Assembly: GCF_964204865.1 (NCBI RefSeq)
Contig: NC_135252.1
Span: 13,227,383 to 13,291,382, forward strand
DNA length: 64,000 nucleotides
DNA from: Styela clava
Taxonomy: Eukaryota; Chordata; Ascidiacea; Stolidobranchia; Styelidae
Direction of reading: 5' to 3'
Under the pieces are notes generated by a model. It saw nothing but the letters and a program-made list of their open reading frames with translations, ran no database searches and was not told the origin of the DNA. Positions 1 to 55,400 of this stretch are shown here, one piece after another. Position numbers and translations under genes: made by a program. Numbering within the stretch: position 1 is the stretch's first letter; every line of letters begins with the position of its first letter.

Positions 1-1215
1 GTTTTAATTGAACACGAAGTGGACCTATGAATCGTTTTGGTATTGCACAAGAAGTGTACATATGGATAGTTATGTTATTATGGTATTTTTTATCATGTTG
101 TTAGTTTAGTTTTCTTTTTTTCTCCTTCTTGTTGGAAAAAAGACCTGCTTTTTTATTAACTACTGGACCAATTGCTTTGAAATTGTCAGTGATTAAAAAA
201 TGACATTAAAATTTTATTTGTTATTTGTTTTTCACTTCTACATTTCGTGTGATGACCTCAAAATCAATAAACATTATTTGTAGCGGTTCGTTGATCTCTC
301 TCGTGCCACTTTTGTTTCTACGCGAAAGTCGGAGATTTTTTGACAGTACTGTAAAGGATGAGGTAGACTACTACTTCGTTTTGATCTCCGTGTACATATA
401 TTTGAGACATCGCTCTTTTGTTCCTTGTCGCATCCATGTTGCCGTATGCAACTTGTTAAATCGCTCCATTAATTTGCAGCATCGTAATATGATTTTTACA
501 CTACTACTACCACATGGCGACCCTGTTCAGGGTTATATTATAGTTTGTAGACTACCTTGATTTTTGAAGCATATATTATATACGAATATGAAACGAAGGG
601 TACACATAAATACTTTTAAACTGTTTATTATAACATGAAGTATATAATAGATTTTTATGATTCTCTGTATATCGGAGTGATTATGGAAGTATTCCATCAA
701 AATTTTACAGGTTAGGGAAGCCAAAAATTAACATGTTTATGACAAAAATTGGGTATGCCAGATTTTTTTTAATTAAACGATATTTAGGAGCCTCTCTAAA
801 ATTATTTTGAAATCCCGGAGGCTGTCATTGAAATATTTGTTTTCAATTTAAAAAATCTTTCTTTCAAAACGAAATTGATCCCAACATAGTTTAACAGGAT
901 TTTACCATTTATTCTAATTTGGCATGGTCAGCAAGATCGTGCATGTCGTGAATACAATGTATATATATGCACTTCAAGATATTTTTGTTGTTTTTTTCTT
1001 GTCATTCTTAGATTTCGAAGTCTAAATGGTCATTCGGGCATAAAACAAAGCGGAGTATAAACATTATCAAATATGTAACGGGCATTAACATAATTCTTCA
1101 ATTTGGATAATTCTACATTGATCTAAATATACACTTTAAGTCACATATACAATTGCAATTATTTTTATGAAAGTTTTCCCAAACATTATTACAAGCATGA
1201 ATGTCCAGATTCGGG

Positions 1216-3269
1216 TTAAGCTAACAGATAATCCGATGGGTTCAGGTCACCACACCCGAATGTCACTAATGTGTTCGGGTCGATTCCTTGCTCAACTGCA
1301 AAAGCTTTGAGTTCTGAAAGATTGTCATCGTTTATTGTCGGCGTTCTGGTAAAAAATTGTAAAAGCTTCTGACCTGTAACACAACAACGGTGAAATAATG
1401 ATAGTAATAAAATAGTCATAAACTGCAATCAGACAGGAAAAGTCAACTGCAGTTTTTTCGGAGCAGTTTTATTAATTTCAATTGGAGTAAAACAATTATG
1501 AGACATGTAACCATATTAAGGGTCAAAAGTCATGAATATAACTCACCAGCCTCCATTGGAGTCAATATACTGAAGAAAGTAGAATAGTCGGTTGAATAGT
1601 CATGTGGATGGGAGTAGAACAATGGCTCTCCTGTAAATAGAAAGTGGATTTGCAAAATATCGCATTTCATGCAATTCATGTAACACTTTTACCTTTAGAA
1701 GGAGGTCTTATCTTTGTGCCAACAGAGAGCTGTTCTTGATAAAGCTTTGTTTCTATCTTTTCCCAGCTTTTCTCTGAAAGAAGTTAAATGCCAATCATAT
1801 GATCGTGGTATGATTAATTAATTCTGTGACTTCACTGTAATGAATATTGACAAGAACTACATGATACAGAATGATTGCTCGGTTCACTAGAAACTAGAAC
1901 CCAATGAAACTGCCTAATTTGTACGCGATAACAATCTTGAAGGTGAATATAAATCACTGAAACTCTCACCAAACTTCTGATTATGCCAAATTTGACCCAG
2001 GTGGTCGCGGTATAAATCTTCTGCAAAGGAGTGAGGATTCTGTGATTTATTCCTGTTATGAAACAAATAACATAGGAATTTTAATAATTTATCTCGTGTA
2101 GATCGATATATCGTATTTTCCGGCGAATAAGTCGCTTTGCTAGACCCAAACTTATGGCCTGATTTTTTTTGGGGGGAGGGGGGTCGTCCTACAAGGCGAG
2201 TATGGTAATTTTCATTTTTTGGTGTCGCCTTATTATGTATTAGGTAATGTTCTTTTATGGGAGACGCATTCGCGAGTTGAACACAATTAGATTAAAATTT
2301 AAAGACAGTTTGAATTCCTGTAGTTATCATGGATTGAATATTACAATACAAGAAAACGTCATTATAGGCTATTTCAACCAATGCACAAACGCGGCGACCG
2401 CTCAAAAGGCATTACATGGTAATTTGAGATTTCGATATTGTCGCGATATTACAACCCCGACTTATTGGCAGGTTATATGCAAAAAAAACATTTTTTCAGG
2501 CTCAAAAACGGGCCTCGTCTTATTTACGGGGTAGACTTATTCGCCGGTGAAATACGGTATATATTTTATTTTTATCAACTAGCAACGTTGTTTTCCTTTT
2601 GAAATACTACTCACTTGGGTAAGTTATAATAGTATAGACTCATCCCATTCTCTGTTACGTTGAAAGGTGCAACAACATGACACTTCCATAATACGTTCCA
2701 GGACGAGACGTCCACACCAAGTGTGAGAAACCAGACTCCTTGCAACTGAGAGTAAGATGGAAAGTGAAATACGTTTTTACGCTTAGAGTGCTCGGAGCAT
2801 TGGGTATTTTTTATATTTTTCAAAACGGATATTTTGTAAACACGGGTTTGTTTCGAAGTATTCGTATTTTTTTTTCAGTAAAAAACACAGAAAAACTGCA
2901 GCTTTACGTAGCAATTACAACTCGTAATCGTTGCGCTCCATTCGTGAGACGGCGTAGGTCCATTACAAGATCACACTATTTTGTAACTGCCTCGAGTACG
3001 CAATGAAATTAGAAAATATTTTTTACAATTCTTATGATGCGATTCTCCGTGTCATTTTCAACATATTTCGAAGAAAGAGCAATAGTGTTATTGTCCTGGA
3101 GAACATCTCAGGTACAAAATTAGAGGTATAATACAATTAATGTTCAACAAATACTTTTTTATCAACTTACGCGTTCAAAATCAGTATCATTTCCTGAATA
3201 TATTTCTCGACTCCATGCGAACGATAAGAACAGAATAATCAAAGACAAGGAAGAAGTTGACTCCATCAT
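1216..3269 (-). CDS. Secreted lipocalin-like protein, array copy A (six exons)
   Basis: Six exons with GT-AG borders and matching phases: 3269-3171, 2745-2615, 2052-1970, 1773-1693, 1630-1547, 1373-1216 (636 nt, 211 aa). Exon 1 encodes a signal peptide starting MMESTSSLSLIILFLSFAWS. Exon 2 opens with LQGVWFLTLG, which fits the lipocalin G-x-W motif at the first strand (Gly36, Trp38). Cys55 and Cys200 could form the usual bridge between barrel and C-terminal tail. The last exon has FFTRTP followed by a helix-like segment, as after the lipocalin barrel. NDT (27-29), NVT (62-64) and NKS (78-80) are possible glycosylation sites. Lipocalins bind small hydrophobic ligands outside the cell; the ligand here is unknown. 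Exon 3 must start at 2052, not after the nearer CAG, or the frame breaks. The reading frame is fully open. Family assignment rests on motif and size only. Confidence 0.68.
2111..2557. mobile_element. Terminal-inverted-repeat element (MITE-like) in intron 2 of copy A
   Basis: The ends are inverted: CGTATTTTCCGGCGAATAAG at the left and the reverse complement of CGTATTTCACCGGCGAATAA at the right. The element lies in the intron between exons 2 and 3 of the lipocalin-like gene. The equivalent intron of unit C (near 13428) lacks it and reads straight through a TATA-rich site. No transposase is encoded; the open frame inside (2247-2534) is a by-product. A relative lies at 19272-19636. Superfamily not assigned. 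Confidence 0.75.
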
Positions 3270-3870
3270 CCCAGCCTTGTGAATATCTCAATGCGAATAA
3301 TTGCTGGAATGACAGTGCAGAGGGAAAAAACATATTAAATAGAAGCATAAATAGGAACATTATATAATGGGTCGTGATGCAAATATGTCATGATGTTTTT
3401 ATTTTGTCTGCACTTTTTCGATATTTTTTGAGTGTTCACTAGCATTTCCTTTGAACACTGCTATTGAAACGCAGAAACATTATTTACGTTCTATCTTTTA
3501 AATTTGTGAATTACACTTATATACGTACATTCAGGAAACAACTTTGAAAATTTTAATTAAAAATTTACATATTTATATTGGCGAAATTACATTAGGGGTT
3601 CATTTGCACATGAAGCTAAACTTATGTAAGTCGCAAGGTGCGTTTAAAACGTAGAACCATGTCACAGCAGCCAGGTGTGTTGCAGATTAAAACAGATGAA
3701 TCTATATCGCATTTTCTAATTTCAAATTTTGTATGATTGATATATATATATATATATGTAGGTAAAAGTCAAATTCGGAACTTTGGGTATATCCAGCCAC
3801 ATACTCAACAATTACACCACGCTTTGAATAAATCAATTTCTGAAGTGTCAACTACACCTGATAATGTTCA

Positions 3871-4460
3871 ATGATGAAAATCAACAAAAATCGTTGTAAT
3901 ATTTCCGAATCATATGCTGTGCCCAGGGAAGATCGAGTAATGTCGCAACTTCGTCGCAACCGTGGAACACGTTTCAAAGAATTGTAAATCGTCAAAATAT
4001 AGCGTTTAATACTATTCATATAAAAAGATTAATGACAGTTTCAGTATTTTATTTTCACCTTCAAGACTGTTATTGGCTTATTGCTGTAGTTAGTTTCCGG
4101 GAAACCAAAAAAATCATTGTATATTAAGTAGTTCTTGGCAATTTTCATTGAAGTGAAATCACTGAATCAATCAATTATACCAACAATTTGATTGGCATTC
4201 AATTTGCTTTCAGAGGAAATCTGGGAAGAGATGGATACAGAACTTTATCAAGAACAACCTTCTGTTGGCAGTAACTTGGCGCAGAGATAAGATCACACTC
4301 CCTCCCATGAGAATTTATGAAAGATGTTACTAAAGCACGAATTGCGATATTATACAAATCCACTTTCTATCTACAAGAGAGTCATGGTCCTATTCTCATC
4401 CACGTGCCTATCCAACCGAATATTTAGTTTTCTTTAGTCATTTGACTTCAATGGAGAATG
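3871..4460 (+). pseudogene. Plus-strand decayed copy of the lipocalin-like gene, unit A
   Basis: Opposite to gene A and facing away from it, two segments match its exons 4 and 5. From 4214, after a CAG acceptor, the sequence encodes a relative of the exon-4 peptide (EEIWEEMDTELYQEQPSVG), then a stop after a small insertion. About 4375-4460 matches exon 5 (YSHPRAYPTEY) and ends at a GT donor, but its acceptor AG has become AA. A 39-codon open frame at 3871-3987, shared by all three units, precedes them; I do not recognise it. No exon 6 match follows in this unit, because a repeat replaces it. Probably non-functional. Confidence 0.65.
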
Positions 4461-4869
4461 GTGAGTAATATTCACGAAATTTCCTCAGTAATTTTATCAT
4501 GTTCCACTTGATGTTCACATGTTTCATCATTGTTTTACTCCTATGGACCTTTCCCGACCTTTGACCCCCAAAAAATTCTTCCCATACTTTACCATTGCAA
4601 ACTTTTGGGGCTATTTTAAAAGTGCTTTGGCGAGTTGGCGCCTGTAAAATAGGGTATTTGTTTCAAACCATCATTATGATTTATCGCATACAACAATCTG
4701 ATTTTTAAAAGTATCGGTAAAGAATTTTAGCCTAGTCTATCACAGATATTTCTACACTAATTTTTTATAACATTTAATTATTTACCGAATAAAACAAGGG
4801 TCGTCACAGTTGCTTTGCTGTACAGAGGGTGGCTGCATTGCATCATTCAACAAAATTTAGCCATTTTAT

Positions 4870-5125
4870 CTTTTCCAATTATTGGACACGTCAGTGTACA
4901 TAGCGATCGTTTCGATATTATGTTGTTATTGTTCATGTTCTTCTCCGTCACCATAAAATCGTAATTTGATATTACCACCATAAATTGATTTTTTGCCAGA
5001 AGGCTATTACTTTTATTTATTTCAAGAATTTCTGTGGACTTCAAGAGATTAGTTTTTTATGTGTCAGAATAAAAAATAGCGACACCTTGTGACGTGTCCA
5101 TATATTTGAGCTCAGTTCTCTTGTT
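4870..5125. repeat. Dispersed repeat containing ATTGGACACG...CGTGTCCATATATTTGAG
   Basis: This stretch runs from ATTGGACACGTCAGTG to CGTGTCCATATATTTGAGCT. The same elements recur at 10560-10815 and, in reverse orientation, at 51385-51615; partial copies lie at about 130-430 and 5915-6075. The ends carry short inverted matches (GGACACGT / ACGTGTCC), so a small non-autonomous DNA element is likely. No coding content. Confidence 0.6.
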
Positions 5126-6860
5126 CTAAACTAGATTTTGTCAATGTTCAAATATCAAGTTTGGAGACAATAGATTTTTTTTCCGCTATCGAAGACCGAA
5201 CGCGTTAAATGTTAAAGAAGTTTTAATATATTTTCTTGTCATCGACTAGTCAATATATCATATTCATGATATCCAAATGACATGTGCAACCCTTTTCTAA
5301 ACCTATGGCTGCTTCAACCATTAGTCTAACAATCTGGCTTATTCAAGACAGCAATAATTTGAGATTGAGTCTACACAAATTAAATGTGTTAATACGCCAA
5401 ACGAGCAACCGATTTCTAGTTGATCAATCGCCAAATAGCCTTGCGCGGTATTCGTCGGTGAATGATAATATGATGGAAATCGTTTAACTCTAAATTATTC
5501 ATAGCGAAAGTCATAGCTATTTTACTGATTTTTATTTCCCTTCTTAAGTCAAAAGTTTGACAAAGATTGATTTGTACAGAGCGTAGTTTACTTGCGAATA
5601 TATCTCAGGCACGCAAAATTTATTTCAAGAAATGTAATGATAGAATGTAACGCATTTAGAAAAAACTGTGCAATTGATGAATATTTACCTAACAGTACCA
5701 CAATCAACATTATATCGTTTTTATTTCATATTTATTTTGAGAATTTGTGATAGAGAAGTGCATGAGCTGCGTAATTGATGATATCCCTGTAACGATTACC
5801 CCAAGTTTTATGATCAACGTTAATGCGTAACGAACGAAGAAAGCAAAGATTTAGCACCAAGACAGAAAATTTTATGAAATGCGGTTTCATACAGGAACAG
5901 AAAAACCCCTAGCTTTTATCATTTACTACTGGACCAATGCTACTTTTTTGCTACCTGAAAGTCGGAGATTTTTTGACAGTACTGTAAAATAAAAGGTAGA
6001 CTAATACTTCGTTTTGATCTCCGTGTACATATATTTGAGTCATCACTCTCTTGTTCCTTGTCGCATCCATGTTGTCGTATGCGAGTTGTTAACTCGATCG
6101 CGTTGCATTAATTTGCAGCATCGTAATAGGATCTTTACACTACTACTACCACATAGCGACCCTGTTCAGGATTATACTTATAGTTTGTAGACTACCTTGA
6201 TTTTTAAAGCATATATTATATACGAATATGGAAGGTAGGGTACACATCAATACTTTTAAACTGTTTATTATAATATGAAGTATTAGATTTTTATGGCTCT
6301 CTGTATATTGGAGTGATTATGGACGTCTTCCATCAAAATTCTACAGGTTAGGAAAGCCAAAAATGAACATGTTTATGACAAAAATTGGTTATGCCAAGTT
6401 TTTTTTTAATTAAACGATATTAAGAGCCTCTCTAAAATTATTTTGAAATCCCGGAGGCCGCCATTGAAATATTTTTTTTTTAAGTCAAAAAATCTTTTCT
6501 TCAAAACGAAATTGATCCCAACATAGTTTAACAGGAATTTTCCGTTCATTCTAATTTGGCATGGTCAGCAACATCGTGCATGTGGTGAATACAATGTATA
6601 TGCACTTCAAGATATTTTTTATTTGTTTTTCTTGTTATTCTTAGATTTCGAAGTTTAAATGGTCATTCGGGCATAAAACAAACCTGAGTATAAACATTAT
6701 CAAATATGTAACGGACATTACCATAATTCTTCAACTTAGTTAATTCTACATTGATCTAAATATACACTTTAAGTCACATATACAATTGAAATTATTTTTA
6801 TGAAAGTTTTCCCAAACATTGTTACAAACACTATTACAAGCATGAATGTTCAGATTCGGG

Positions 6861-8913
6861 TTAAGCTAACAGATAATCCGATGGAATCAGGTCACCACAC
6901 CCGAATGTCACTAATGTGTTTGGGTCGATTCCTTGCTCAACTGCAAAAGTTTTGAGTTCTGAAAGATTGTCATCGTTTATTGTCGGCGTTCTGGTAAAAA
7001 ATTGTAAAAGCCCCTGACCTGTAACACAACAACGGTGAAATAATGATAGTTATAAAATATACATAAACTGCAATCAGACTGGAAAAGTCAACTGCAGTTT
7101 TTTCGTAGCAGTTTTATTAATTTCAATAGGAGTAAAACAGTTATGAGACATGTAACCATATAAAGAGTCAAAAGTCATGAATATAACTCACCAGCCTCCA
7201 TTGGAGTCAATATACTAAAGAAAGTAGAATAGTCGGTTGAATAGTCATGTGGATGGGAGTAGAACAATGGCTCTCCTGTAAATAGAAAGTGGATTTGCAA
7301 ATTGCAATCGCAATTCATGCAATTCATGTAACACTTTTACCTTTAGAAGGAGGTCTTATCTTTGTGCCAACAGAAAGCTGTTCTTGATAAAGCTCTGTTT
7401 CTATCTTTTCCCAGCTTTTCTCTGAAAGAAGTTAAATGCCAATCATATGATCGTGGTATGATTAATTAATTCTGTGACTTCACTGTAATGAATATTGACA
7501 AGAACTACATGATACAGAATGATTGCTCGGTTCACTAGAAACTAGAACCCAATGAAACTGCCCAATTTGTACGCGATAACAATCTTGAAGGTGAATATAA
7601 ATCACTGAAACTCTCACCAAACTTCTGATTATGCCAAATTTGACCCAGGTGGTCGCGGTATAAATCTTCTGCAAAGGAGTGAGGATTCTGTGATTTATTC
7701 CTGTTATGAAACAAATAACATAGGAATTTTAATAATTTATCTCGTGTAGATCGATATATCGTATTTTCCGGCGAATAAGTCGCTTTGCTAGACCCAAACT
7801 TATGGCCTGATTTTTTTTGGGGGGAGGGGGGTCGTCCTACAAGGCGAGTATGGTAATTTTCATTTTTTTGGTGTCGCCTTATTATGTATTAGGTAATGTT
7901 CTTTTATGGGGGACGCATTCGCGAGTTGAACACAATTAGATTAAAATTTAAAGACAGTTTGAATTCCTGTAGTTATCATGGATTGAATATTACAATACAA
8001 GAAAACGTCATTATAGGCTATTTCAACCAATGCACAAACGCGGCGACCGCTCAAAAGGCATTACATGGTAATTTGAGATTCCGATATTGTCGCGATATTA
8101 TAACCCCGACTTATTGGCAGGTTATATGCAAAAAAACATTTTTTCAGGCTCAAAAACGGGCCTCGTCTTATTTACGGGGTAGACTTATTCGCCGGTGAAA
8201 TACGGTATATATTTTATTTTTATCAACTAGCAACGTTGTTTTCCTTTTGAAATACTACTCACTTGGATAAGTTATAATAGTATAGACTCATCCCATTCTC
8301 TGTTACGTTGAAAGGTGCAACAACATGACACTTCCATAATACGTTCCAGGACGAGACGTCCACACCAAGTGTGAGAAACCAGACTCCTTGCAACTGAGAG
8401 TAAGATGGAAAGTGAAATACGTTTTTACGCTTAGAGTGCTCGGAGCATTGGGTATTTTTTATATTTTTCAAAACGGATATTTTGTAAACACGGGTTTGTT
8501 TCGAAGTATTCGTATTTTTTTTTCAGTAAAAAACACAGAAAAACTGCAGCGTTACGTAGCAATTACAACTCGTAATCGTTGCGCTCCATTCGTGAGACGG
8601 CGTAGGTCCATTACAAGATCACATTATTTTGTAACTGCCTCGAGTACGCAATGAAATTAGAAAATATTTTTTACAATTCTTATGATGCGATTCTTCGTGT
8701 CATTTTCAACATATTTCGAAGAAAGAGCAATAGTGTTATTGTCCTGGAGAACATCTCAGGTACAAAATTAGAGGTATAATACAATTAATGTTCAACAAAT
8801 ACTTTTTTATCAACTTACGCGTTCAAATTCAATATCATTTCCTGAATATATTTCTCGACTCCATGCGATAAGAACAGAATAATCAAAGACAAGGAAGAAG
8901 TTGACTCCATCAT
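6861..8913 (-). CDS. Lipocalin-like protein, array copy B, with frameshifted signal exon
   Basis: Exons correspond one to one with copy A: 8913-8819, 8393-8263, 7700-7618, 7421-7341, 7275-7192, 7018-6861. Exons 2-6 are open with intact splice sites and identical lengths, and keep the G-x-W motif and both cysteines. Exon 1 differs: copy A has GCGAACGATAAG where B has GCGATAAG, a 4-bp deletion that shifts the usual start out of frame with the mature protein. In B an upstream ATG at 9004 is now in frame through exon 1; it begins MFLFMLLFNMFFPSALSF, which is hydrophobic. Copy B is therefore either a recent pseudogene or uses this longer leader. Coding differences from A in the last exon include Lys to Gly, Ala to Thr and Asn to Ile. 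Confidence 0.55.
7759..8205. mobile_element. Same intronic TIR element in copy B
   Basis: Nearly identical to 2111-2557 and at the same intron position, between exons 2 and 3 of copy B. The shared insertion shows that it was present before the A/B duplication. It has the same inverted ends (CGTATTTTCCGGCGAATAAG) and no transposase. Confidence 0.75.
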
Positions 8914-9394
8914 CCCAGCCTTGTGAATATCTCAATGCGAATAATTGCTGGAATGACAGTGCAGAGGGAAAAAACATATTAAATAGAAGCATAAATAGGA
9001 ACATTATATAATGGGTCGTGATGCAAATATGTCATGATGTTTTTATTTTGTCTGCACTTTTTCGATATTTTTTGAGTGTTCACTAGCATTTCCTTTGAAC
9101 ACTGCTATTGAAACGCAGAAACATTATTTACGTTCTATCTTTTAAATTTGTGAATTACACTTATATACGTAGATTCAGGAAACAACTTTGAAAATTTAAA
9201 TTAAAAATTTACATATGTATATTGGCGAAATTACATTCGGGGTTCATTTGCACATGAAGCTAAACTTATGTATGTCGCAAGGTGTGTTTAAAACGTAGAA
9301 CCATGTCACAGCAGCCAGGTGTGTTGCAGAAAAAAACAGATGAATCTATATCGCATTTTCTAATTTCAAATTTTGTATGATTGATATATATATA

Positions 9395-9502
9395 TATGTG
9401 GCTGGATATACCCAAAGTTCCGAATTTGACTTTTACCTACATATATATATATATATGTAGGTAAAAGTCAAATTCGGAACTTTGGGTATATCCAGCCACA
9501 TA
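9395..9502. repeat. 108-bp perfect palindrome with TA-rich centre
   Basis: The left arm begins TATGTGGCTGGATATACCCA and the right arm ends with its exact complement, TGGGTATATCCAGCCACATA. The centre is an AT dinucleotide run at 9441-9456. Both 54-base arms pair without a mismatch. Units A (about 3745-3803) and C carry only the right-hand arm, so the left arm is specific to unit B. It could extrude as a cruciform or hairpin. Position: between gene B and its plus-strand relic. Confidence 0.9.
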
Positions 9503-9569
9503 CTCAACAAATACACCACGCTTTGAATAAATCAATTTCTGAAGTGTCAACTACACCTGATAATGTTCA

Positions 9570-10159
9570 ATGATGAAAATCAACAAAAATCGTTGTAATA
9601 TTTCCGAATCATATGCTGTGCCCACGGAAGATCGAGTAATGTCGCAACTTCGTCGCAACCGTGGAACACGTTTCAAAGAATTGTAAATCGTCAAAATATA
9701 GCGTTTAATACCATTCATTTTAAAAGATTAATGAGAGTTTCAGTAATTTATTTTCACCTTCAAGACTGTTATTGGCTTATTGCTGTAGTTAGTTTCCGGG
9801 AAACCAAAAAAATCATTGTATATTAAGTAGTTCTTGGCAATTTTCATTGAAGTGAAATCACTGAATCAATCAATTATACCAAAAACGTATTTGATTGGCA
9901 TTCAATTTGCTTTCAGAGAAAATCTGGGAAGAGATGGATACAGAACTTTATCAAGAACAACCTTCTGTTGGCAGTAACTTGGCGCAGAGATAAGATTACC
10001 CTCCCTCCCATGAGAATTTATGGAAGATGTAAAACCTGAATTGCGGTATTATACAAATCCACTTTCTATCTACAAGAGAGTCATGGTCCTATTCTCATCC
10101 ACGTGCCTATCCAACCGAATATTTAACTTTCTTTAGTCATTTGACTTCAATGGAGAATG
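9570..10159 (+). pseudogene. Plus-strand decayed lipocalin-like copy, unit B
   Basis: Same layout as in unit A: a 39-codon open frame (9570-9686), then an exon-4-like segment near 9916 (EKIWEEMDTELYQEQPSVG, then a stop after an insertion), then an exon-5-like segment ending at 10159 before a GT donor. The acceptor of the exon-5-like segment is AA instead of AG. No exon 6 follows. Confidence 0.65.
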
Positions 10160-10559
10160 GTGAGTAATATTCACGAAATTTCCTCAGTAATTTTATCATG
10201 TTCCACTTGATGTTCACATGTTTCATCATTGTTTTACTCCTATGGACCTTTGACCCCCAAAAAATTCTTCCCATACTTTACCATTGCAAAACTTTTGGGG
10301 CTATTTTAAAAGTGCTTTTGCGAGTTGGCGCCTGTAAAATAGGGTATGTGTTTCAAACCATCATTATGATTTATCGCATACAACAATCTGATTTTTAAAA
10401 GTATCGGTAAAGAATTTTAGCCTAGTCTATCACAGATATTTCTACACTAATTTTTTATAACATTTAATTATTTACCGAATAAAACAAGGGTCGTCACAGT
10501 TGCTTTGCTGTACAGAGGGTGGCTGCATTGCATCATTCAACAAAATTTAGCCATTTTAT

Positions 10560-10815
10560 CTTTTCCAATTATTGGACACGTCAGTGTACATAACGATCGT
10601 TTCGATATTATGTTGTTATTGTTCATGTTCTTCTCCGTCACCATAAAATCGTAATTTGATATTACCACTATAAATTGATTTTTTGCCAGAAGGCTATTAC
10701 TTTTATTTATTTCAAGAATTTCTGTGGACTTCAAGAAATTAGTTTTTTATGTGTCAGAATAAAAAATAGCGACAACTTGTGACGTGTCCATATATTTGAG
10801 CTCAGTTCTCTTGTT
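10560..10815. repeat. Dispersed GGACACGT repeat, unit B copy
   Basis: Copy of the repeat at 4870-5125, differing by a few bases, located after the plus-strand relic of unit B. See also the reverse-oriented copy at 51385-51615. Confidence 0.6.
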
Positions 10816-12557
10816 CTAAACTAGATTTTGTCAAAGTTCAAATATCAAGTTTGGAGACAATAGATTTTTTTCTGGTATCGAAGATCGAACGCGTTAAATG
10901 TTAAAGAAGTTTTAATATATTTTTTCTTGTCATCGACTAGTCAATATATCATATTCATGATATCGAAATGACATGTGCAACCCTTTTCTAAACCTATTGC
11001 TGCTTCAATCATTAGTCTAACAATCTGGCTTATTCAAGACAACAATAATTTGAGATTGAGTCTACACAAATTGAATGTGTTAATACACCAAACGAGCAAC
11101 CGATTTCTAGTTGATCAATCGCCAAATAGCCTTGCGCGGTATTCGTCGGTGAATGATAATATGACGGAAATCGTTTGACTCTAACTTATTCATAGCGAAA
11201 GTCATAGCTATTTTACTGATTTTTATTTCCCTTTTCAAGTCAAAAGTTTGACAAAGATTGATTTGTACAGAGCGTAGTTTACTTGCAAATATATCTCAGG
11301 CACGCAAAATTTATTTCAAGAAATGTAATGATAGAATGTAACGCATTTAGAAAAAACTGTGCAATTGATAAATATTTACCTAACAGTACCACAATCAACA
11401 TTATATCGTTTTTATTTCATATTTATTTCGAGAATTTGTGATAGAGAAGTGCATGAGCTGCGTAATTGATGATATCCCTGTAACGATTACCCCAAGTTTT
11501 ATGATCAACGTTAATGCGTAACGAACGAAGAAAGCAAAGCTGTAGCACCAAGACAGAAAAATCTATGAAATGCGGTTTCATACAGGAACAGAAAAACCCC
11601 TAGCTTTTATCATTTACTACTGGACCAATGCAACTTTTTTGCTACCTGAAAGTCGGAGATTTTTTGGCAGTACTGTAAAATATAAGGTAGACTAATACTT
11701 CGTTTTGATCTCCGTGTACATATATTTGAGTCATCACTCTCTTGTTCCTTGTCGCATCCGTGTTGTTCCATGTCGTATGCGAGTTGTTAACTCGATCGCG
11801 TTGCATTAATTTGCAGCATCGTAATAGGATCTTTACACTACTACTACCACATAGCGACCCTGTTCAGGATTATACTTATAGTTTGTAGACTACCTTGATT
11901 TTTAAAGCATATATTATATACGAATATGGAAGGTAGGGTACACATCAATACTTTTAAACTGTTTATTATAATATGAAGTATTAGATTTTTATGGCTCTCT
12001 GTATATTGGAGTGATTATGGACGTCTTCCATCAAAATTTTACAGGTTAGGAAAGCCAAAAATGAACATGTTTATGACAAAAATTGGTTATGCCAAGTTTT
12101 TTTCCAATTAAACGATATTAGGAGCCTCTCTAAAATTATTTTGAAATCCCGGAGGCTGCCATTGAAATATTTTTTTTAAAGTCAAAAAATCTGTTCTTCA
12201 AAACGAAATTGCTCCCAACACAGTTTAACAGAAATGTTCCGTTCATTCTAATTTGGCATGGTCAGCAACATCGTGCATGTGGTGAATACAATGTATATGC
12301 ACTTCAAGATATTTTTGTTTGGTGATTCTTGTTCTTCTTAGATTTCGAAGTCTAAATGGTCATTCGGGCATAAAACAAAGCTGAGTATAAACATTATCAA
12401 ATATGTAACGGACATTAACATAATTATTCAACTTGGTTAATTCTACATTTATCTAAATATACACTTTAAGTCACATATACAAATGCAAATATTTTTTTGA
12501 AAGTTTTTCCAAACATTGTTACAAACACTATCACAAGCATGAATGTTCAGATTCGGG

Positions 12558-14157
12558 TTAAGCTAACAGATAATCCGATGGATTCAGGTCACCACACCCG
12601 AATGTCACTAATGTGTTTGGGTCGATTCCTTGCTCAACTGCAAAAGCTTTGAGCTCTGAAAGATTGTCATCATTTATTGTCGGCGTTCTGGTAAAAAATT
12701 GTAAAAGCTTCTGACCTGTAACACATCAACGGTGAAATAATGATAGTGATAAAATATTCATAAACTGCAATCAGACAGGAAAAGTCAACTGCAGTTTTAT
12801 TCATTTAAATAGGAGTAAAACAATGATGAGACATATAACTATATAAAGAGTCAAAGGTCATAAACATAACTCACCAGCCTCCATTGAAGTCAATATACTA
12901 AAGAAAGTAGAATAGTCGGTTGAATAGTCATGTGGATGAGAGTAGAACAAAGGCTCTCCTGTAAATAGAAAGAGGATTTGTAAAATATCGCAATTCATGA
13001 TTTGATCAAATCTTTACCTTTAGAGGGAAGTCTCATCTTTGTGTCTACAGAAAGTTGTTCTTGATAAAGCTCTGTATCTATCTTTTCCCAGCTTTTCTCT
13101 GAAAGAAATTAAATGCCAATCATATGATCGTGGTATGATTGATCAACTCTGTGACTTCACTTTATTGAAAATCGACAAGAACTACATAATAAAGAATGAT
13201 TGTTCGGTTCACTAGAAACTAGAGCCCAATGAAACTGCGTAATTTGTACGCGATAACAATCTTGAAGGTGACAATAAATCACTGAAACTCTGACCGAACT
13301 GATGATTATTCCAAATTTGACCCAGATGGTCGCGGTATAAATCTTCTGTAAAGGAGTGTGGAATCTGTGGTTTATTCCTGTTATGAAACAATTACAATAG
13401 GAAGTTTAATATAATTTATCTCGTGTACCTCGATATATTTTATTTTTATTAACTAGAAACTTTGTTTTCGTTTTTGAAATACTACTCACTTGGGTAAGTT
13501 ATACGAGTATTGACTCATCCTATTATCTGTTACGTTGAAAGGTGCAACAACATGACATTTCCATAATACGTTCCAGGATGAGTCGTCCAGGCCAAGTGTG
13601 AGAAACCAAACTCCTTGCAACTGAGAGTAATATAAAACGGAATATACGTTTTTGCGCCTTCAGTGCTTGAGCATTGGGTACTTTTTATATTTTTCAAAAC
13701 GGGTATTTTATAAACACGGGTTTGTTTTGCAGTATTCTCGTCTTTCGTATTTTTTATTTACATGTGTAGGGTAACACGGAAAAACTGCAACGTTGCGTAG
13801 CAATTACAACTCGTAACTTTGCGCTCTATTCCTGAGACGACGTATGCCCATACAAGATCACATTATTTTGTCACTGCCTTGAATAAGCAATAAAATTAGC
13901 AAGTATATTATATAAGGCTTATGATGCGATGCTTCGTGTCATTTCAACATATTTCGGCGAAAAATTATAGTGTTATTGTTCTGGAGAACATCTCAGGTAC
14001 AAAACCAGAATAATAATATATACAATTAATGTTCGACAAATACTTTTTTTTAACTTACGCGTTCAAAATCAATGTCATTTCCTGAATATATTTCTCGACT
14101 CCATGCGAACGATAAGAACAGAATAATCAATGACAAGGAAGAAGTTGACTCCATCAT
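12558..14157 (-). CDS. Secreted lipocalin-like protein, array copy C (six exons, intact)
   Basis: Exons 14157-14059, 13620-13490, 13377-13295, 13098-13018, 12958-12875, 12715-12558, with the same lengths as copy A (211 aa). The signal peptide exon is intact (MMESTSSLSLIILFLSFAWS). The G-x-W motif, Cys55 and Cys200 are kept. This copy has more substitutions than A and B have from each other; its exon 2 ends with an altered segment reading NRMSQYSYNLPK. The exon 3 donor is GTCAGA rather than GTGAGA, so slightly weaker. The intron between exons 2 and 3 is only about 110 bp because the TIR element of A and B is absent. Identity as a lipocalin is by motif and size; ligand and tissue are unknown. 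Confidence 0.68.
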
Positions 14158-14737
14158 CCCAGTCTTGTGAATATCTCAATGCGAACTATTGCTGAAATGA
14201 CAGTGCAGAGGAATAAAACATATTAAATAGAAGCATAAATAGGAACATTATATAATGGATCGTGATGCAAACATGTCATGATGTTTTTATTTTGTCTGGA
14301 AGTTTTTGATATTTTTCGAGTGTTCACTAGCATTTCCCTTGAACACTGCTATTGAATGGCAAAAACATTATTCACATTCTACCTTTTAAATTTGTAGATT
14401 ACACATATATATATATACGTACATTCAGTAAACAACATTGAAAATTTAAATTAAAAATTTACAAATGTATATTGTCGAAATTACATTAGGAGTTCACTTA
14501 AACATGAAGCTAAACTCATAGATGTAGCAAGGTGTGTTTAAAACGTGGAACAATGTCACAGCAGATTAAAACAGTTGAATCTATATCGCATTTTCTAATT
14601 TTGTATGATTGCCATATATATATATGTAGTTGAAAGTCAAATTCGAGACTTTGGGTATATCCAGCCACATACTCACAAATACACCACGCTTTGAATACAC
14701 CAATTTTTGAAGTGTCAACTACACCGGATAATGTTCA

Positions 14738-15543
14738 ATGATGAGAATCAACAAAAATCGTTGTAATATTTCGGAATCATATGCTGTGCCCACGGAAGAT
14801 CGAGTAATGTCGCAACTTCGTCGCAACCGTGGAACACGTTTCAAAGAATCGGAAACTGGCAGAATACTTACAAATATTCGATTTGCGTTTGAAAATTCCA
14901 TTAATCGTCAAACTATAGCGTTTAATACAATCCATATATATATAAAGATTGATGAGAGTTTCAGTGATTCAATTGGCATTCAATTTGCTTTCAGAGAAAA
15001 TCTGGGAAGAGATGGATACAGAACTTTATCAAGAACAACCTTCTGTTGGCAGTCTCTTGGCGCAGAGATGAGACCACACTCCCTCCCATGAGAATTTATG
15101 AAAGATGTTACTAAAGCACGAATTGCGATATTAAACAAATCCACTTTCTATTTACAGGAGAGTCATGGTCCTATTCTCATGCACATGCCTATTCAACCGA
15201 ATATTCAACTTTCTTTAGTCAATTGACTTCAATGGAGGCTGGTGAGTAATATTCATGAAGTTACCTCAGTATTTTTATCATGTTCCACTTGATGTTCACA
15301 TGTTTCATCATTGTTTTACTCCTATTGAAATAAATCAAAATTGAGCAAGGATTCGATCCAAGCACGTTAGTGACGTTCGGGCGTGGTGACCTGATTTCAT
15401 CGGATTGTCTGATTGTTTATGATTATTTAATATTAAAATTTTACCGTTGCTTTTGCAGTTGAGTAAGGAATCGATCCAAGCACGTTAGTGACGTTCGGGC
15501 GTGGTGATCTGATTTCATCGGATATATCTATTTATTAGCTTAA
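14738..15543 (+). pseudogene. Plus-strand decayed lipocalin-like copy, unit C (most complete)
   Basis: This relic retains more than those in A and B. An open frame begins at 14738 and runs to 15091. An exon-4-like segment starts near 14994 after a CAG. An exon-5-like segment (15158-15241, 84 nt as in the genes) has a good AG acceptor, an open frame and a GTGAGT donor. Two copies of an exon-6-like segment follow, at about 15338-15416 and 15458-15543. In both, the Cys200 codon TGT is CGT (Arg), and the second has TAA in place of a Gln codon. Matching 3' flank continues to about 15705. The damage argues against a functional product. Confidence 0.7.
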
Positions 15544-15705
15544 CCCAAACATGAAACATCATATTTATACTTGTAATGGAGTATATGACAATGTTTGGAA
15601 AAACTTTCACATAAAATAGTTTCAATTGTAAATGTGACTTGAGTGTTTAGTTTGGTTCAGTTGAAGAATATGTTAGCGCCCGTTTTATAATCGATAATGT
15701 TTGCG

Positions 15706-18754: not shown

Positions 18755-19271
18755 TTCACGGTTTGACACCCCCAACGACTAACGGGGACACCCCTGGTCT
18801 AGCCCACCTCTTCATGCACCCAATTCTGGCAACTTTGGTTGGGCATTTTTGGCAATTGACTCCAGCTATTATCAGCTTGGCAATATATTTTTCAATTTAT
18901 CTTTACTGTTCACTCCCATTTATAAAATCGATCAATTCGGCAGTGGAAAACATTATAAATTTATTAATATGGCGTGGCAAGTATTTTTTTTTTCAACTAC
19001 CTGTATGTAATTTATCATGTTCTTCTTACTTTAAAATTTCTGTATGGCTGTGTGTGTGGGTGCGTGTGTGAAATATTTCCATTATTTTAGGTGAGTGAAC
19101 ACGTACCACTTCTTCTTGGCAAAACCTCCCATCTTATATACATTCTGTACGCTTCAAACCTTATCTAAGGTTTTGTTTGCTCTCCTGATTTCATAATCAG
19201 TTTATGTTTATTTATTTTTACCAATCATTTTATTGTTATGCTGATTATGGAGTCGAAATAAACTTAGACTT
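18755..19271. other. Gene-free stretch with GT-rich run and possible retroelement 3' end
   Basis: No gene recognised. A GT-rich run lies near 19044-19068. The end, GGAGTCGAAATAAACTTAG near 19250, resembles the 3' terminus of many non-LTR retroelements or SINEs, but no coding part is present. The open frame 18763-19071 has no recognisable features. Confidence 0.35.
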
Positions 19272-19636
19272 ACCGTATTTCCCGGCGAATAAGTCGCTTT
19301 TCTAGACCCAAATTTTTGGCCTGATTTTGAGGGGTTCTTTTGAGGGGTCTTTTTAGGCGAATATGATAATTTTCATTTTTTTGTGTCCCCTTATTGTATT
19401 ATGTATTAAGTAATGTTCTTTTATGGTGGAAGCAATCGCGAGTTGAACACAATTAGATTAAAATTTAAAGACAGTTTGAATTCTGAATTCTCTTAGTTAT
19501 TATGGATTGAATATTACGCTACAAAAAAACGTCATAGGCTATGGTACCGGTACCGTACCGGTATGATTTTAACCAATGCGCAAACGCGGCGACCGCTCAA
19601 AAGGCATTGCATGGTGATTTGAGATTCAATAAGGTC
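19272..19636. mobile_element. Truncated copy of the TIR element found in lipocalin introns
   Basis: Starts ACCGTATTTCCCGGCGAATA and follows the order of 2111-2430 (AGACCCAAA, GGCCTGATTTT, GAGTTGAACACAATTAGA, AACGCGGCGACCGCTC) with several indels. It ends near 19636, before the right inverted end. It shows that the family is dispersed rather than specific to the lipocalin array. Confidence 0.7.
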
Positions 19637-21865: not shown

Positions 21866-23578
21866 ATGATGACTATATATAAGTCATTGTTTATCTGTCG
21901 AGGAAGCCTTTCCAGTTCTTTGTTTGGAAAACAACTTGCTTCAAACTCTTATTCAATTAGTCAAAATGGTTTGAGAATCCAATACTCGTCAGAATCTATT
22001 TCAGAATCCCTTCCAAAAATAAAGTCTTTTGATAGTAGCATGATGAAGCACATGTACAGTTTCAATTTGAAAAATATTGACAAATTGAGGGGCAAATATA
22101 ACAGTCTTGTGGCTACTGCTTATCAAGGAGGTGGTGAAAAGGCAATAAAGCGGCACGTAGAAAGAAATAAAAAAATTCTTGTTCGTGAAAGACTGAAGAA
22201 AATTTTGGATACAAATTCACCTGTACTAGAAATTGGTACACTGGCTGGATATGATATGGAATATGGAAATATTGCTTGCGCTGGAGTAGTAACTGTTATT
22301 GGTAAAATTCACAACACATGGTGCATGGTTGTTGCTAATGATGCAACTGTAAAAGGTGGTTCAATTTATCCTATAACTCTCAAAAAGCAGTTGAGATGCC
22401 ATCAAATTGCTGAAGAAAATCATTTGGCTTCTATTTATCTTGTGGACAGTGGAGGTGCATTTCTACCATTACAATCTGAAATTTTTAATCCTGGTGGTAG
22501 AATATTTCACAATCAAGCTGTTATGTCCTCACAAGGCATACCTCAGATCGCATTTGTGTGTGGGTCGTGTACTGCTGGGGCCGCCTATATTCCAACAATG
22601 GCTCAAGAAGCTGTGATAGCTGATCAAATTGGTACTATATTTCTTGGCGGTCCACCGTTGGTACAAGCAGCTACTGGTGAAAAAGTGACACCAAACGAAT
22701 TGGGGGGTGCAGATTTACATTCTCGATTGAGTGGTTGCACTGACCACTTTGTCAAAACCGAAATTGAAGGTTTGAAAAGGGTTCGGGATATCGTAGCAAC
22801 AAGTAATTTGACAAAAGTGAAGGGAGAGAATTTCTATTATGAAAAAGATAAAACCGAAATATGTAAACTTGCTGCTGGTAATAAAGAATATAGTGTTGAT
22901 GCTCATGAGATCATTAAGTGTTTGGCAGATAACGATGGATTTCACGAATACAAAGAACAATATGGTACTTCACTTGTCACTGGTTTTATGTTCGTCAGTG
23001 GTATCTTAGTTGGAGTTATCGCGAATAATGGCTACATAACAGACAAAGCTGCTAAAAAGGGCTCCAATTTTGTGCAATTGTGTGGAGCTCGACAAATTCC
23101 TGTTTTATTTCTTCAAAATTTGTGTGATGACGAAACATTGTCTGTGAATGATACCAGCAATTCTGTTATCAAATCAAGGGCCTCCTTCATGCAAAGTATT
23201 GCCACTTGTCCTTGTCCAAAAATAGTGATCAGTGTTGGAGGATTGGTAGGCTCACCTCACATGCATCCGATGTGTTCTTTATCTATGGGTGCAAGATTCC
23301 ATTTTGTGTGGCCAAATGTTAGATTGGGTGCTGAATTTTTGTGGAACAGTAACTCTGACATTTCGTACTCAGAGTATGAAACATTGAAGCATAAATCTAC
23401 AGCATTCTATGGTGCGTCTCAGTGTTGGTACGATGGCATTGTTTTGCCAGAAGACACAAAAGAAGTTATATTCTTCTGTCTTAGTATATTTGAACAGGAA
23501 AGAGCAACACGCCTACAGCAGGCAAATAATCAAGCTATTTCGGATCCCAATAATATGCATACTGTTATCAGATTGTGA
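21866..23578 (+). CDS. Intronless MCC-beta-like carboxyltransferase relative, probable pseudoenzyme
   Basis: A single 570-residue frame, close to the length of MCCC2 (563 aa in human). Residues 1-50 look like a mitochondrial leader (basic, Ser-rich). The first carboxyltransferase half is well kept: QGGGEKA (87-93), VRERL (106-110), ANDATVKGG (157-165), DSGGAFLP (194-201), GSCTAGAAYIP (233-243), FLGGPPLVQAATGE (259-272) and GGADLHSRLSG (280-290). The second half keeps VTGF (371-374), AKKG (396-399), PVLFLQN (412-418) and WPN (482-484). The usual biotin-side loop TGFMVG is replaced after LFLQN by LCDDETLS. The glycine-rich YGAGNYGMCG loop that makes the second oxyanion hole is replaced by VGSPHMHPMC. 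GGEQAA is absent. MCC uses biotin carboxylate to carboxylate 3-methylcrotonyl-CoA in leucine breakdown. Lack of introns suggests a retrocopy, and intact coding over 1.7 kb suggests selection. Confidence 0.82.
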   Translation: MMTIYKSLFICRGSLSSSLFGKQLASNSYSISQNGLRIQYSSESISESLPKIKSFDSSMMKHMYSFNLKNIDKLRGKYNSLVATAYQGGGEKAIKRHVERNKKILVRERLKKILDTNSPVLEIGTLAGYDMEYGNIACAGVVTVIGKIHNTWCMVVANDATVKGGSIYPITLKKQLRCHQIAEENHLASIYLVDSGGAFLPLQSEIFNPGGRIFHNQAVMSSQGIPQIAFVCGSCTAGAAYIPTMAQEAVIADQIGTIFLGGPPLVQAATGEKVTPNELGGADLHSRLSGCTDHFVKTEIEGLKRVRDIVATSNLTKVKGENFYYEKDKTEICKLAAGNKEYSVDAHEIIKCLADNDGFHEYKEQYGTSLVTGFMFVSGILVGVIANNGYITDKAAKKGSNFVQLCGARQIPVLFLQNLCDDETLSVNDTSNSVIKSRASFMQSIATCPCPKIVISVGGLVGSPHMHPMCSLSMGARFHFVWPNVRLGAEFLWNSNSDISYSEYETLKHKSTAFYGASQCWYDGIVLPEDTKEVIFFCLSIFEQERATRLQQANNQAISDPNNMHTVIRL

Positions 23579-48100: not shown

Positions 48101-48652
48101 TCATCTTCCTCCGATAACAAATCTTGGTTCTTCAGAATCGTCTTCTTCCTTATTTGCTTCATCATTTTCTGATTCAGGAGAATCACTTGCTTCTTTTTGA
48201 TCTCCCTCTTTCTGCTTCTTCAATTGCTTTTTCTTGAAGAGCATTTTTTGCTTTTTTCTTTGTCTTTTAGCTCTCTTTTTTGCAGTTGATTCCTCTTCTT
48301 TATCCTTTATACTTTGTATCTTGTCTTCATATTCAAGATCAAGTCTTTGTTTTTTATCCATTTTATCATGATATTCCTCCCGGGCAAATTCCCTTCGTCT
48401 GATATGACGATAAACATGAAATTCACCACTTCCTGCACCAGCACTTGAACCCATAACATCACGAACAAATTCAGGTGCATCACGTGGCTTCCATATTTTT
48501 TTTGGTTCAGGAATGTAAACAGGTTTATCAGGATTTTTCATGAGTTTTTCAACTTTTAATTTTTGTAGTTCGGCCATACTTTTTGGATGAATCACCTTCT
48601 TTTCGGCTGCTTCTTTCGGCATCTTGGCTTCATTTCTAATTGGTAACTCCAT
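48101..48652 (-). CDS. PRKRIP1: PRKRIP1, PRKR-interacting protein homolog (single exon)
   Basis: 183 residues from the first in-frame ATG at 48652 (human 184). The family core is almost identical: [19 protein letters not shown], then [20 protein letters not shown], with [20 protein letters not shown] just before it. After that comes a long basic coiled-coil region rich in [12 protein letters not shown], an acidic Ser/Glu tail, and the terminal FVIGGR resembling human FTMGR. The human protein is nuclear/nucleolar, binds double-stranded RNA, inhibits the kinase PKR, and is a spliceosome component that bridges the U2 and ICP branch helix region. No intron interrupts the coding sequence, unlike its neighbour PTCD1. 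Confidence 0.95.
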
Positions 48653-49105
48653 TTTCAAAATGAATATTTCTGTATTTGGGTCTGTTTGTACCTAACTAAC
48701 TTACAGACTTAACTGTAATTCAGTAATTTGTTGATTCAATTATTTTGTCAAATAGTTTATTCCAGTATTCAGCTATTAGTGCCTTTTGTTGTGAGACAGT
48801 GCTGCAGTGAGTAGCCTACAGAAGTAGCCTAATTGATGTCACTGACATACAACATTAACAGTAGGGATGTCCGTATCCGAATAGTCTACTAAACTAATCT
48901 AGAATAGCACCGAAAAAACATTTCGAATATCATTTAATACAAAAATACAATAAAGTTCATCACATTACACATCATCATCCAATATAATCCCCATCATCAT
49001 TGTATGTTCCATTAATTCAGCATCAGTATCATCCAATTTTTTCAAATACATATTCACAAATACATACAATAAATTATTGTAATACACCTCAATGAATACA
49101 ACCAT
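48653..49105. other. Upstream region of PRKRIP1
   Basis: No gene recognised. It should contain the PRKRIP1 promoter; no TATA box stands out. A run of CATCATCATC lies at 48971-48998. Confidence 0.35.
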
Positions 49106-52403: not shown

Positions 52404-55400
52404 TCAGCCAAACGTGTTCATTACAGTGCCCCAAATACTTGACAAAGCTATCCAGAGGAAGATTGAAGGACGGGAACAGCCTGCTGATCCTGAAATAAAA
52501 CACATAATGGAGTAGAAATGTTCGATTATCTTGACGAAAAACAATGATCAATATAATCTATGCCTGAATACAGTAGGCATGGTGAGTTGAAACACAAACT
52601 GGTGCTAGCACTTCAAATCAGTATGCAGTCCGTACAATCGTATGCGGTGGCGGGCGTAATGGGCAAGATTTTTTATTATTCATTTTGAACAATTTTCCGT
52701 CGAATTCTGAGAAAACAAAGTTCTTTGCATTGAAGTTTTTCGTACCTTTGGGCTTCACTTGCGAGTTTTATTTAGGTGTCTCTAATTTCGGTCCAAACGA
52801 AATAATGCCAATATGTTTTCGAAAGAGTTGCGTTTAAGCTGCTAGACTAGGTTTACATAAGTTGCCAGATTTTTTAATACCAATTTTATGACTATTTTCC
52901 AACGAAATGCTGTTTATGAAATGAATAGCCAGTTTGCGATGGTAGACTTGCTGAAGAATACATATAAAATCTTGTGATAGTAAGGTGAGGCATGTATTTT
53001 TATGAAACCAGAAAAGTCTAAAATATTGGTAAATGTACACCATTCATTGCACATTTGTGTCACAAACCTGTGGTGCTTTGTTCACTTGTCTTAGTTGGTG
53101 CATCAGTGCTCATGTTTCCGTGTAAATAGGTGATTTCGTGTTGAATCGTAGTGGTATCTGGGTATACATGCGTTATTGAAGTTGTCAGGCTTTGTGTTGT
53201 TACTTTCAAATAAAATCAATGGCTTACGTTGTGAGCAATACACTCATAATCGAGGGTATCAAACTATTAACTTGTCAATATGTTTTACCTTCCTGGAATT
53301 AATGCGTTCACGGACAAACTGATTTATTTAGGCAACTAGTGAACTAGTTAAAAAAATTGCAGGTTGAGAAATGAGATGATTTCATATAATAATGTATGGG
53401 AAAACGAAAAGATGGTTGGTTTAAAGTCTATAATGCGTTATCACTATACCTTCAATATTGACATCTCCTCTAGCAGGATTACTACAAAGTTTATCAACGC
53501 AGACGTCTTGGTCATTACATTGTGAACAGGATGTTCCTTTTATATAAGGCTTGTATCCTGAGAAATGAAATTCGCACATTCTAATGATGTCAAGTATATA
53601 CTGCAAAATTCTCTCAATGTAAATTGATGAATCAAGTTACAATCAATTCATTAACCTCGCCAAGGACGGCTTCGGTGTTGTTAAAACTTACCCTTTTTTT
53701 AATTATTTGAAGGTTGTAAAGATAAAAATGTCTTATGGGCACCAAAAACCACCATTGGTGGCTTTGCGGAGGATTTTAGTTTAGTGATATTGTTAATGAA
53801 ATCAATTACTCAGTAGATAACGTAGGGTAGCGCACCTCGTATGTTTCCCCCTGGTGCATAATTGCAGGCAAATAGAGTCGCGTCTGTCCATATTTTACCG
53901 TCGACAAGGACAGATTCACAAGTTGTCATTCCACAGCCAACTTTATATGATTGAGCCCATACCACCTGAAAATAGGATAGTTTACCCGCTTTTCATCCTG
54001 CCTATTTTGTGTTGCGCTGGGAATGAAATTTTGGCAATAAATAAAGTCAAATGTATATATGTATATATATACATACATAATATTTAAAACAAAATTTGCA
54101 TATAATTTTTTAACATCTTATCGTCCGGAATATTATAATAAAATGAATGCTCAAACGAAAGGATTCCGCAATCAAAGTAAGACGGATTGTCTTGTGTGCT
54201 GTCATTTTTTTATGCGTCGTTGCGAAGTTCAGGAGAAAAAAAGTGGAAGTAACAAATATTCATCGAGGACAATTTTGTTCAATTCGTATTTAATCATCAA
54301 TAAGAACCGTACGCTTGTATTACCGCAGTCATACGTTTTACAATTCGCATTACCTCACCACAAAAAGTTAAAATCGGACGATCGTGGATCTTTTGGCATA
54401 ATGTCAGGTCAGCAAAAATTTCGTCCAACATTACATAACGTTTTAAAGAATGTAACCTGAAAGAGAGAACGACCCAGCGACGAATATCCCGCAAACTGGC
54501 AACATGACGCGGCTCTATGAATGCCGATCACTGCATCAAGATATACCGGCATTCGTAGATATGGAGAACAGCGCCGCACCGAGAAAAGTCGTATAGTCTC
54601 AAGGTCCTATTCAAATAGAATACCATACCTGAGTATAATGACCACAAACTTTTCCTGGAGTACAAGTCAGTGTATCAAATGAGTAATCACGTTTTTCATC
54701 ATCCCAAGCCACAACCGCACCAGGTCCATAATTTTCGTCTATTTTCCTCCCCATCGAAATATACAAATTTTCACCAACATACGTAAATCCGTCCAATTTA
54801 CGATCCTGAATGTGTACATCAAACACAAAAAAAAATAATATGTTTCATGGTGTAAAAAAATTTAGTCTGGTTTTTCACTTTTCTGAGGAAGATGAGAGAC
54901 GATATGTACAATATTTTCGTGTTAAAAATAATAAACAAAGTTTGCGATATACTAATTAAACAACATTTAATTGGCATATAAAAAAAGTGCATTTTGATCA
55001 ATTTCAAGGAACAAATTAAACAAAATATTCACTGTACGCCCGGTAATGTCTGCAAACGAAAATTTATGTTTTATAAATGCATTTAATGCATCCTTTAAAT
55101 ATATTTTTACTACTTCCATCTTCATATATTCTTTGCTTCATTATGATTAACCTGTTAAAATCAGATACGGAAATATTCAAATTGAAACATTGTGATGCAA
55201 AATTCGATTCGAGGATGGAATATTTGAAACTTACATCCCGAATTGTTGTCTGTCTGAAATCATACGATTACGTAGCATCTCTAATACCTAATTGTTCATA
55301 CTTGGTATTTATTGAAGCAAATAATCGTTTGAAAGTTTTGATATTTATTATACCAAGTCTTGAGTTCTCTAACCTCATTATGTTCATATATGCATTTCTT

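Follow-up and report, generated by a model that had tools for sequence, protein, structure and literature searches.

Putative secreted lipocalin genes, each paired with an inverted relic, in a tandem array of the ascidian Styela clava

We analysed a stretch of 64,000 nucleotides of the Styela clava genome (hereafter, the window), which covers positions 13227383-13291382 of C3, a 25.6-Mb contig within a genome of 376.6 Mb and 379 contigs. Positions 304-15702 of the window harbour three tandem units of 5.6, 5.7, and 4.1 kb, which were delimited by self-BLAST and unit alignment. Every unit displayed a six-exon gene on the minus strand and an inverted relic of this gene on the plus strand, with their 5′ sides facing each other (head-to-head). 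A preliminary description of this DNA had proposed three tandem units at 165-15705, and these were recovered at nearly the same coordinates. We consider it very probable that the array encodes secreted lipocalins and that it grew stepwise, through the gain of an inverted copy, the joint duplication of gene and copy, and a crossover between units A and C.

Unit A (304-5937) consists of the gene, its head-to-head relic, and a spacer. Unit B (5938-11628) is a mosaic, C-like on its left and A-like on its right, and unit C (11629-15702) ends with relics of exon 6 and an inverted 3′ flank. Gene A (1216-3269, minus strand) comprises exons at 3269-3171, 2745-2615, 2052-1970, 1773-1693, 1630-1547, and 1373-1216, and gene C (12558-14157, minus strand) comprises exons at 14157-14059, 13620-13490, 13377-13295, 13098-13018, 12958-12875, and 12715-12558. 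Both are intact: their joined exons form open frames of 211 amino acids, with GT-AG introns in phases 0, 2, 1, 1, 1. Proteins A and C displayed the G-x-W motif and the two cysteines that had been described beforehand, together with an N-terminus that looks signal-like and hydrophobic by eye. Meanwhile, gene B (6861-8913, minus strand; exons 8913-8819, 8393-8263, 7700-7618, 7421-7341, 7275-7192, and 7018-6861) is frameshifted. Its exon 1 spans 95 nt, versus 99 nt in genes A and C, due to a 4-bp deletion, so that translation from the normal start shifts frame and terminates after 61 codons. Gene B therefore does not encode the 211-amino-acid protein. The earlier claims that all units hold such a six-exon gene, and that one member of each pair stayed intact, are thus accurate for units A and C and fail for unit B.

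Intron 2 of genes A and B carries an element of about 450 nt with inverted ends (2118-2567 and 7766-8215, ends approximate) which is not found in unit C. From its sequence, it looks like a miniature inverted-repeat transposable element. A partial copy (79% identity) lies downstream of the array, at 19271-19627. The spacer between units A and B (4548-5937) is 98% like the one between units B and C. In addition, 596 nt of it (5321-5912) recur just left of the window, at C3:13226732-13227327, with 91% identity. Therefore, the spacer flanks the array on its left side, and it may have helped recombination.

The array belongs to a larger family. A whole-genome search with protein C returned at least 100 matches (E ≤ 10), of which 96 lie on C3; this count is a lower bound, as only the best candidates were scored. 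An exon-chain builder with intron phases fixed beforehand was run on eight stretches, and it yielded 16 six-exon chains on the two contigs C3 and C13. Three of these are the window genes (B only with its shortened exon 1), three lie at C3:12.952-12.963 Mb, two at C3:13.121-13.127 Mb, one at C3:13.377 Mb, six at C3:17.593-17.672 Mb, and one at C13:15.886 Mb. The builder found no six-exon chain at C3:12.923-12.941 Mb or C13:14.012-14.020 Mb. The cluster near 12.95 Mb includes a fourth gene, in its first unit (C3:12.948 Mb), which is without exons 2 and 3. Phases 0, 2, 1, 1, 1 fit all 16 chains but were assumed by the builder; in genes A and C they follow independently from open frames and GT-AG borders.

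The relics of the window were located on the plus strand at 4025-4547 (unit A), 9724-10246 (unit B), and 14914-15702 (unit C). The first runs from intron 3 to intron 5, and the second has the same content and the same exon-4 defects. The third contains exons 4 and 5 (within 14971-15341), partial copies of exon 6 at 15341-15419 and about 15449-15540, and the 3′ flank. As previously claimed, relics of exons 4 and 5 occur in all three units and those of exon 6 only in unit C. Their content is nevertheless not limited to exons, as had been supposed: homology to the genes starts at about the 5′ end of intron 3 and includes the introns from there onward, reaching the 3′ flank in unit C. Stretches of 190-550 nt in the relics are about 71-79% identical to the genes. 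Exon 4 displayed an 11-nt insertion and a lost splice donor in all three relics, suggesting that the copy was most likely dead before the tandem duplications of the window units. In unit C, both partial copies of exon 6 have an arginine in place of a cysteine, and the second has an in-frame TAA; exon 5 of this relic keeps an open frame and both splice signals.

A second array of the same kind was found at C3:12.946-12.963 Mb. It consists of four units, 96-98.6% alike, each with a plus-strand gene and a minus-strand relic of exon 6 arranged head-to-head. In a collinear alignment with this cluster, the spacer of window unit C is 74% identical and its relic 78-80%. Moreover, the relics of both clusters have in common a 16-nt deletion in the 3′ flank that is present neither in the window genes nor in the 13.377-Mb gene, the flanks of the 12.95-Mb genes themselves being not alignable at this point. 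Collinearity and the common deletion suggest that the pair is most likely older than both clusters and that the two sets of gene/relic pairs are probably of common origin. Two observations weigh against a fully shared history: the exon-6 defects differ between the relics of the two clusters, and a tree of exon 6 (87 usable columns) places the window relic apart from the 12.95-Mb relics. Hence, the relic may have died before or after the two clusters split. The preliminary idea of an inverted gene pair that was later amplified therefore agrees with the common exon-4 defects and with the homologous pair some 265 kb away, with the qualification that in the window only the 3′ part of the inverted member (intron 3 onward) was found.

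A further set of pairs is located at C3:17.600-17.639 Mb. It includes three plus-strand relics with 93-94% mutual identity, in which portions of exons 1-6 survive and a stop in exon 6 is common to all three. The exon-6 tree unites them with the genes at 17.615, 17.632, and 17.653 Mb of the same cluster (support 100/99). We take this as another inverted pair, which formed independently of the first. Two of the relics face a gene of their own subfamily head-to-head; the one at 17.601 Mb is opposite a gene from a different subfamily. Between the gene/relic pairs, at C3:17.606-17.652 Mb, there are direct and inverted repeats of about 1-6 kb, many with 86-99% identity. Members at 13.12 Mb, at 13.377 Mb, and on C13 displayed no such inverted partner in the stretches searched.

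These clusters bear on the question of whether the relics ever were genes. They could instead derive from a partial inverted duplication, running from intron 3 to the 3′ flank, that was never coding. Homology does begin at the start of intron 3 in all three window units, no relic of exons 1-3 was found there, and at 12.95 Mb the part of the minus-strand relics recovered by the searches was limited to exon 6 and its flank. Against this, the three inverted copies at 17.600-17.639 Mb still contain parts of exons 1-6. Compared with genes of the same cluster, they are about 76-79% identical over exons 1-5 and 66-73% identical near exon 6, which indicates that full-length inverted copies arise and decay in this family. 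The open frame and intact splice signals of exon 5 in the unit C relic likewise speak for a coding past. A duplication that was partial from the outset is thus a serious possibility, although we think the relics somewhat more probably descend from a gene.

The mosaic structure of unit B is evident from the unit alignment. On the left (5938-6500), B is identical to C at 551 of 562 aligned sites (98.0%) and to A at 507 of 554 (91.5%). On the right (7191-10240), it matches A at 2946 of 2987 sites (98.6%) and C at 2143 of 2413 (88.8%). In the middle (6501-7190), the three units are about equally distant from each other (92.9-94.7%). If misaligned A and C units of an older two-unit array had crossed over, such a hybrid would result, and the presence of the 450-nt intron-2 element in A and B and not in C would be accounted for. 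Unit B also displayed a private 55-nt insertion (9395-9502), which creates a perfect palindrome around a TA repeat (arms of 60 bp); either template switching or faulty assembly may have produced it.

Mis-joined haplotypes would resemble a crossover hybrid. Under such a scenario, two haplotypes of a two-unit array (A and C) were stitched together during assembly, and only two genes exist at this place. The C-left/A-right pattern is what a mis-join would likewise give, and the private palindromic insertion also fits an artefact. Moreover, B differs from its likely sources by only 1.4% on the right and 2.0% on the left, and heterozygosity of this order is common in marine invertebrates. A simple join would nonetheless not give a middle segment of similar identity to both sources (94.7% to A, 93.9% to C). 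The existence of a four-unit array of the same kind at C3:12.946-12.963 Mb and the position of the window array within a 25.6-Mb contig also argue against an artefact. We therefore regard an assembly chimera as rather unlikely and favour the crossover.

Even as a true hybrid, unit B could contain a working gene, provided that translation starts at an upstream in-frame ATG or that a weak donor inside exon 1 is used. Upstream of the normal start, the frame that continues into exon 2 stays open beyond three ATGs, which lie 64-91 nt from that start, and a GT within the shortened exon 1 would restore the frame. These ATGs, however, sit in a promoter-like stretch (TATATAA/TATTTAA, by eye), and the inner donor is without the usual consensus (also by eye) and would remove about 15 residues around the likely signal cleavage site. 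Furthermore, gene B differs from gene A in exons 2-6 by 6 replacement and 4 silent changes, which are few and do not make constraint clear. It is doubtful, then, that gene B still functions, and we treat it as a frameshifted copy.

The identity of the encoded proteins was addressed with an alignment of 11 of the 16 chains. Those dropped were B, the 17.664-Mb chain, in which exon 3 is short, and three near-identical copies, two at 12.95 Mb and one at 17.61 Mb. Lipocalin precursors carry a signal peptide and span about 160-200 amino acids. They display a G-x-W motif near the mature N-terminus, a T-D-Y motif, and an arginine before the C-terminal helix, and their genes generally have intron phases 0, 2, 1, 1, 1 in this order. 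The chains encode precursors of 202-214 amino acids with an N-terminus that is hydrophobic by eye. Twenty columns of the alignment are invariant, including G36-V-W38, C55, H56, T145, Y147, R169, P171, and C200. All three lipocalin motifs are thus represented: G36-V-W38 in 11 of 11 members; T145 and Y147 in all members and D146 in at least 90%, aligned to the TDY of crustacyanin and darcin; and R169 in all members, aligned with the arginine of the SRTPTI segment of Blc. The W-x-C-H segment (positions 53-56, gene C numbering) is also invariant, and S-H-P-H (138-141) is nearly so; the residues of both may possibly be metal or heme ligands.

Profile searches gave a consistent picture. The 11-member profile had 64 matches in the PDB at E ≤ 10, and all of the 60 listed are lipocalins by name. 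They included crustacyanin, darcin and other Mups, rodent OBP3, beta-lactoglobulin, ApoD, sandercyanin, Can f 6, Fel d 4, Q83/Ex-FABP, PGDS, and Blc, all of which are lipocalins. Among the matches listed, the best was crustacyanin A2 (E 9.7e-5). In hhalign, this profile scored 48.2 (probability 92.4) against a Blc set of 42 sequences (E. coli Blc and 41 of 80 relatives retained after redundancy filtering), versus a maximum of 25.5 for 300 column shuffles and 12.3 for the reversed profile. The three window proteins alone scored 38.7 over a C-terminal segment of 35 residues, with a maximum of 29.0 in 300 shuffles. A global hhalign alignment, which placed the motifs out of register (score 20.5), was not used. 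In Pfam Lipocalin, 10 of the 11 members matched at E ≤ 10, the best with E 0.00068.

Several results weigh against this assignment. Proteins A and C scored 13.1 and 13.8 bits on Pfam Lipocalin, under the cut-off of 23, and a profile of these two alone had no match in the PDB. The similarity is mostly C-terminal (profile positions 134-192 of 210 in the best match), and the model of the exon-6 peptide, which we regard as uninformative, has low confidence (pLDDT 63) and contains helices only, with no strand. PDB searches with single window proteins gave only sub-threshold matches, and a search for a family name in NCBIfam retrieved one family only, at E 0.23. An unrelated secreted family with a chance G-x-W would agree with these sub-threshold results and with the failure of the two-sequence profile, but it is very improbable in view of the wider profile, which retrieved lipocalins in 60 of 60 listed matches, and of the Blc score, which none of the 300 shuffles reached. 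The "lipocalin-like" label of the preliminary description consequently stands on firmer ground, since the profile search led to lipocalins in all 60 listed of 64 PDB matches. Gene structure, motifs, and profile homology identify the proteins as lipocalins; secretion, an eight-strand barrel, a C55-C200 disulfide, and ligand binding are predicted from them. The proteins would accordingly be small and extracellular, most likely with a role in transporting or scavenging a small hydrophobic ligand bound inside the barrel. No relative of A and C, and none of Blc, was detected in the viral contigs searched.

Between genes A and C there are 19 replacement and 21 silent changes, corresponding to a ratio of replacement to silent substitution rates (dN/dS) of 0.22 (Fisher p 4.5e-6). 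The ratio was considered for 33 of the 120 chain pairs, those with dS below 0.9, and it lay between 0.2 and 0.7 in 29 of them; the extremes were 0.13 and 1.1, the latter based on 13 changes. These mostly low values suggest that the intact genes are maintained for function. No clear sign of positive selection was seen in the 33 pairs. Broken genes account for two of the seven genes of the two related clusters, namely, window gene B and the 12.948-Mb gene without exons 2 and 3. The earlier suggestion that the amplification reflects selection on dosage or ligand is not supported by these values or by the broken genes.

Based on these findings, we postulate the following history. A gene would have gained a head-to-head inverted copy on the plus strand, and this copy would have decayed, being dead before the window units duplicated. 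The gene, spacer, and inverted copy would then have been duplicated jointly, giving rise to the window array and to the oppositely oriented cluster about 265 kb away. Last, a crossover of misaligned A and C units would have produced hybrid unit B, whose gene is out of frame.

The mouse Mup class B array offers an exact precedent for this organisation. There, lipocalin genes on the reverse strand each lie head-to-head with a pseudogene on the forward strand. An early inactivating mutation, namely a stop within the first coding exon, is common to the pseudogenes, and gene and pseudogene were duplicated jointly as tandem units of about 45 kb (PMC2533699). The S. clava array resembles it in the head-to-head arrangement of gene and pseudogene, in the common early defect, and in joint amplification as a tandem unit. 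It differs in the size of the units (4.1-5.7 kb), in the truncation of the window relics on their 5′ side, and in the location of the common defects in exon 4 instead of a stop in the first coding exon. The Mup-type layout is seen in the window, with exon-4 defects in 3 of 3 relics, and at 17.600-17.639 Mb, where the exon-6 stop occurs in 3 of 3 relics and only 2 of 3 face a gene of their own subfamily. Mup proteins themselves displayed only profile-level similarity to the family (E 0.003-0.1), which is thus not a close member of the Mup group.

Other lipocalins offer partial parallels. The T-D-Y and R-x-P segment with the C-terminal helix aligns with crustacyanin A2, apolipoprotein D, and Blc, all of which have low overall identity to the window family; in crustacyanin, G-x-W aligns as a weak separate piece. 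In teleosts, ApoD clusters consist of lipocalin genes in tandem, like the window array, and the available portion of the source does not mention units of gene and inverted pseudogene (PMC6325677). A single lipocalin was detected in Ciona, according to another report, versus the 16 six-exon chains found here, both being lipocalins of non-vertebrate animals (PMC8420045). Among the titles listed from open-licence literature on lipocalins in combination with tunicates, ascidians, tandem clusters, or family expansion, none concerned this family, which is weak evidence of novelty, and among those listed for lipocalin intron phases none was on this topic. The preliminary view that these proteins belong to no described family is correct insofar as no search named the exact family; they do belong to the lipocalins, and their layout is known from Mup.

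The divergent lipocalin family thus appears to be new, while the kind of array is already known from mouse Mup. What is unusual is the independent recurrence of an amplified inverted pair within one genome. Alongside mouse Mup, the array provides a compact case in which a lipocalin gene is tied to an inverted pseudogene and the two were amplified together. This pattern arose at least twice in this genome, so that one can ask whether an inverted pair promotes amplification. The array further contributes a divergent lipocalin family, of which members A and C fall under the Pfam cut-off when scanned singly. Far more speculatively, the dead partner might be no bystander, given that two independent pairs here, like the mouse Mup pair, carried their dead copy along in the amplification. 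The pair could drive amplification through its palindrome, or the relic could be retained because of a bidirectional regulatory spacer common to both members or because it gives rise to double-stranded RNA by which the intact genes are tuned, and the W-x-C-H and H-P-H residues could make these metal- or heme-binding lipocalins; we give this combined scenario little credence.

The window displayed no Rfam match at gathering thresholds and no tRNA. Outside the array, an intronless open reading frame of 570 amino acids at 21866-23578 encodes a carboxyl transferase domain (Pfam E 1e-79); it resembles the beta chain of methylcrotonoyl- or propionyl-CoA carboxylase and is possibly a retrocopy with its frame kept. 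On the minus strand, an open reading frame at 48101-48658 contains DUF1168 (Pfam E 5.4e-41) and resembles PRKRIP1, and an exon of a CAP-domain (cysteine-rich secretory) protein is located at 55296-55706 (Pfam E 3.3e-7).

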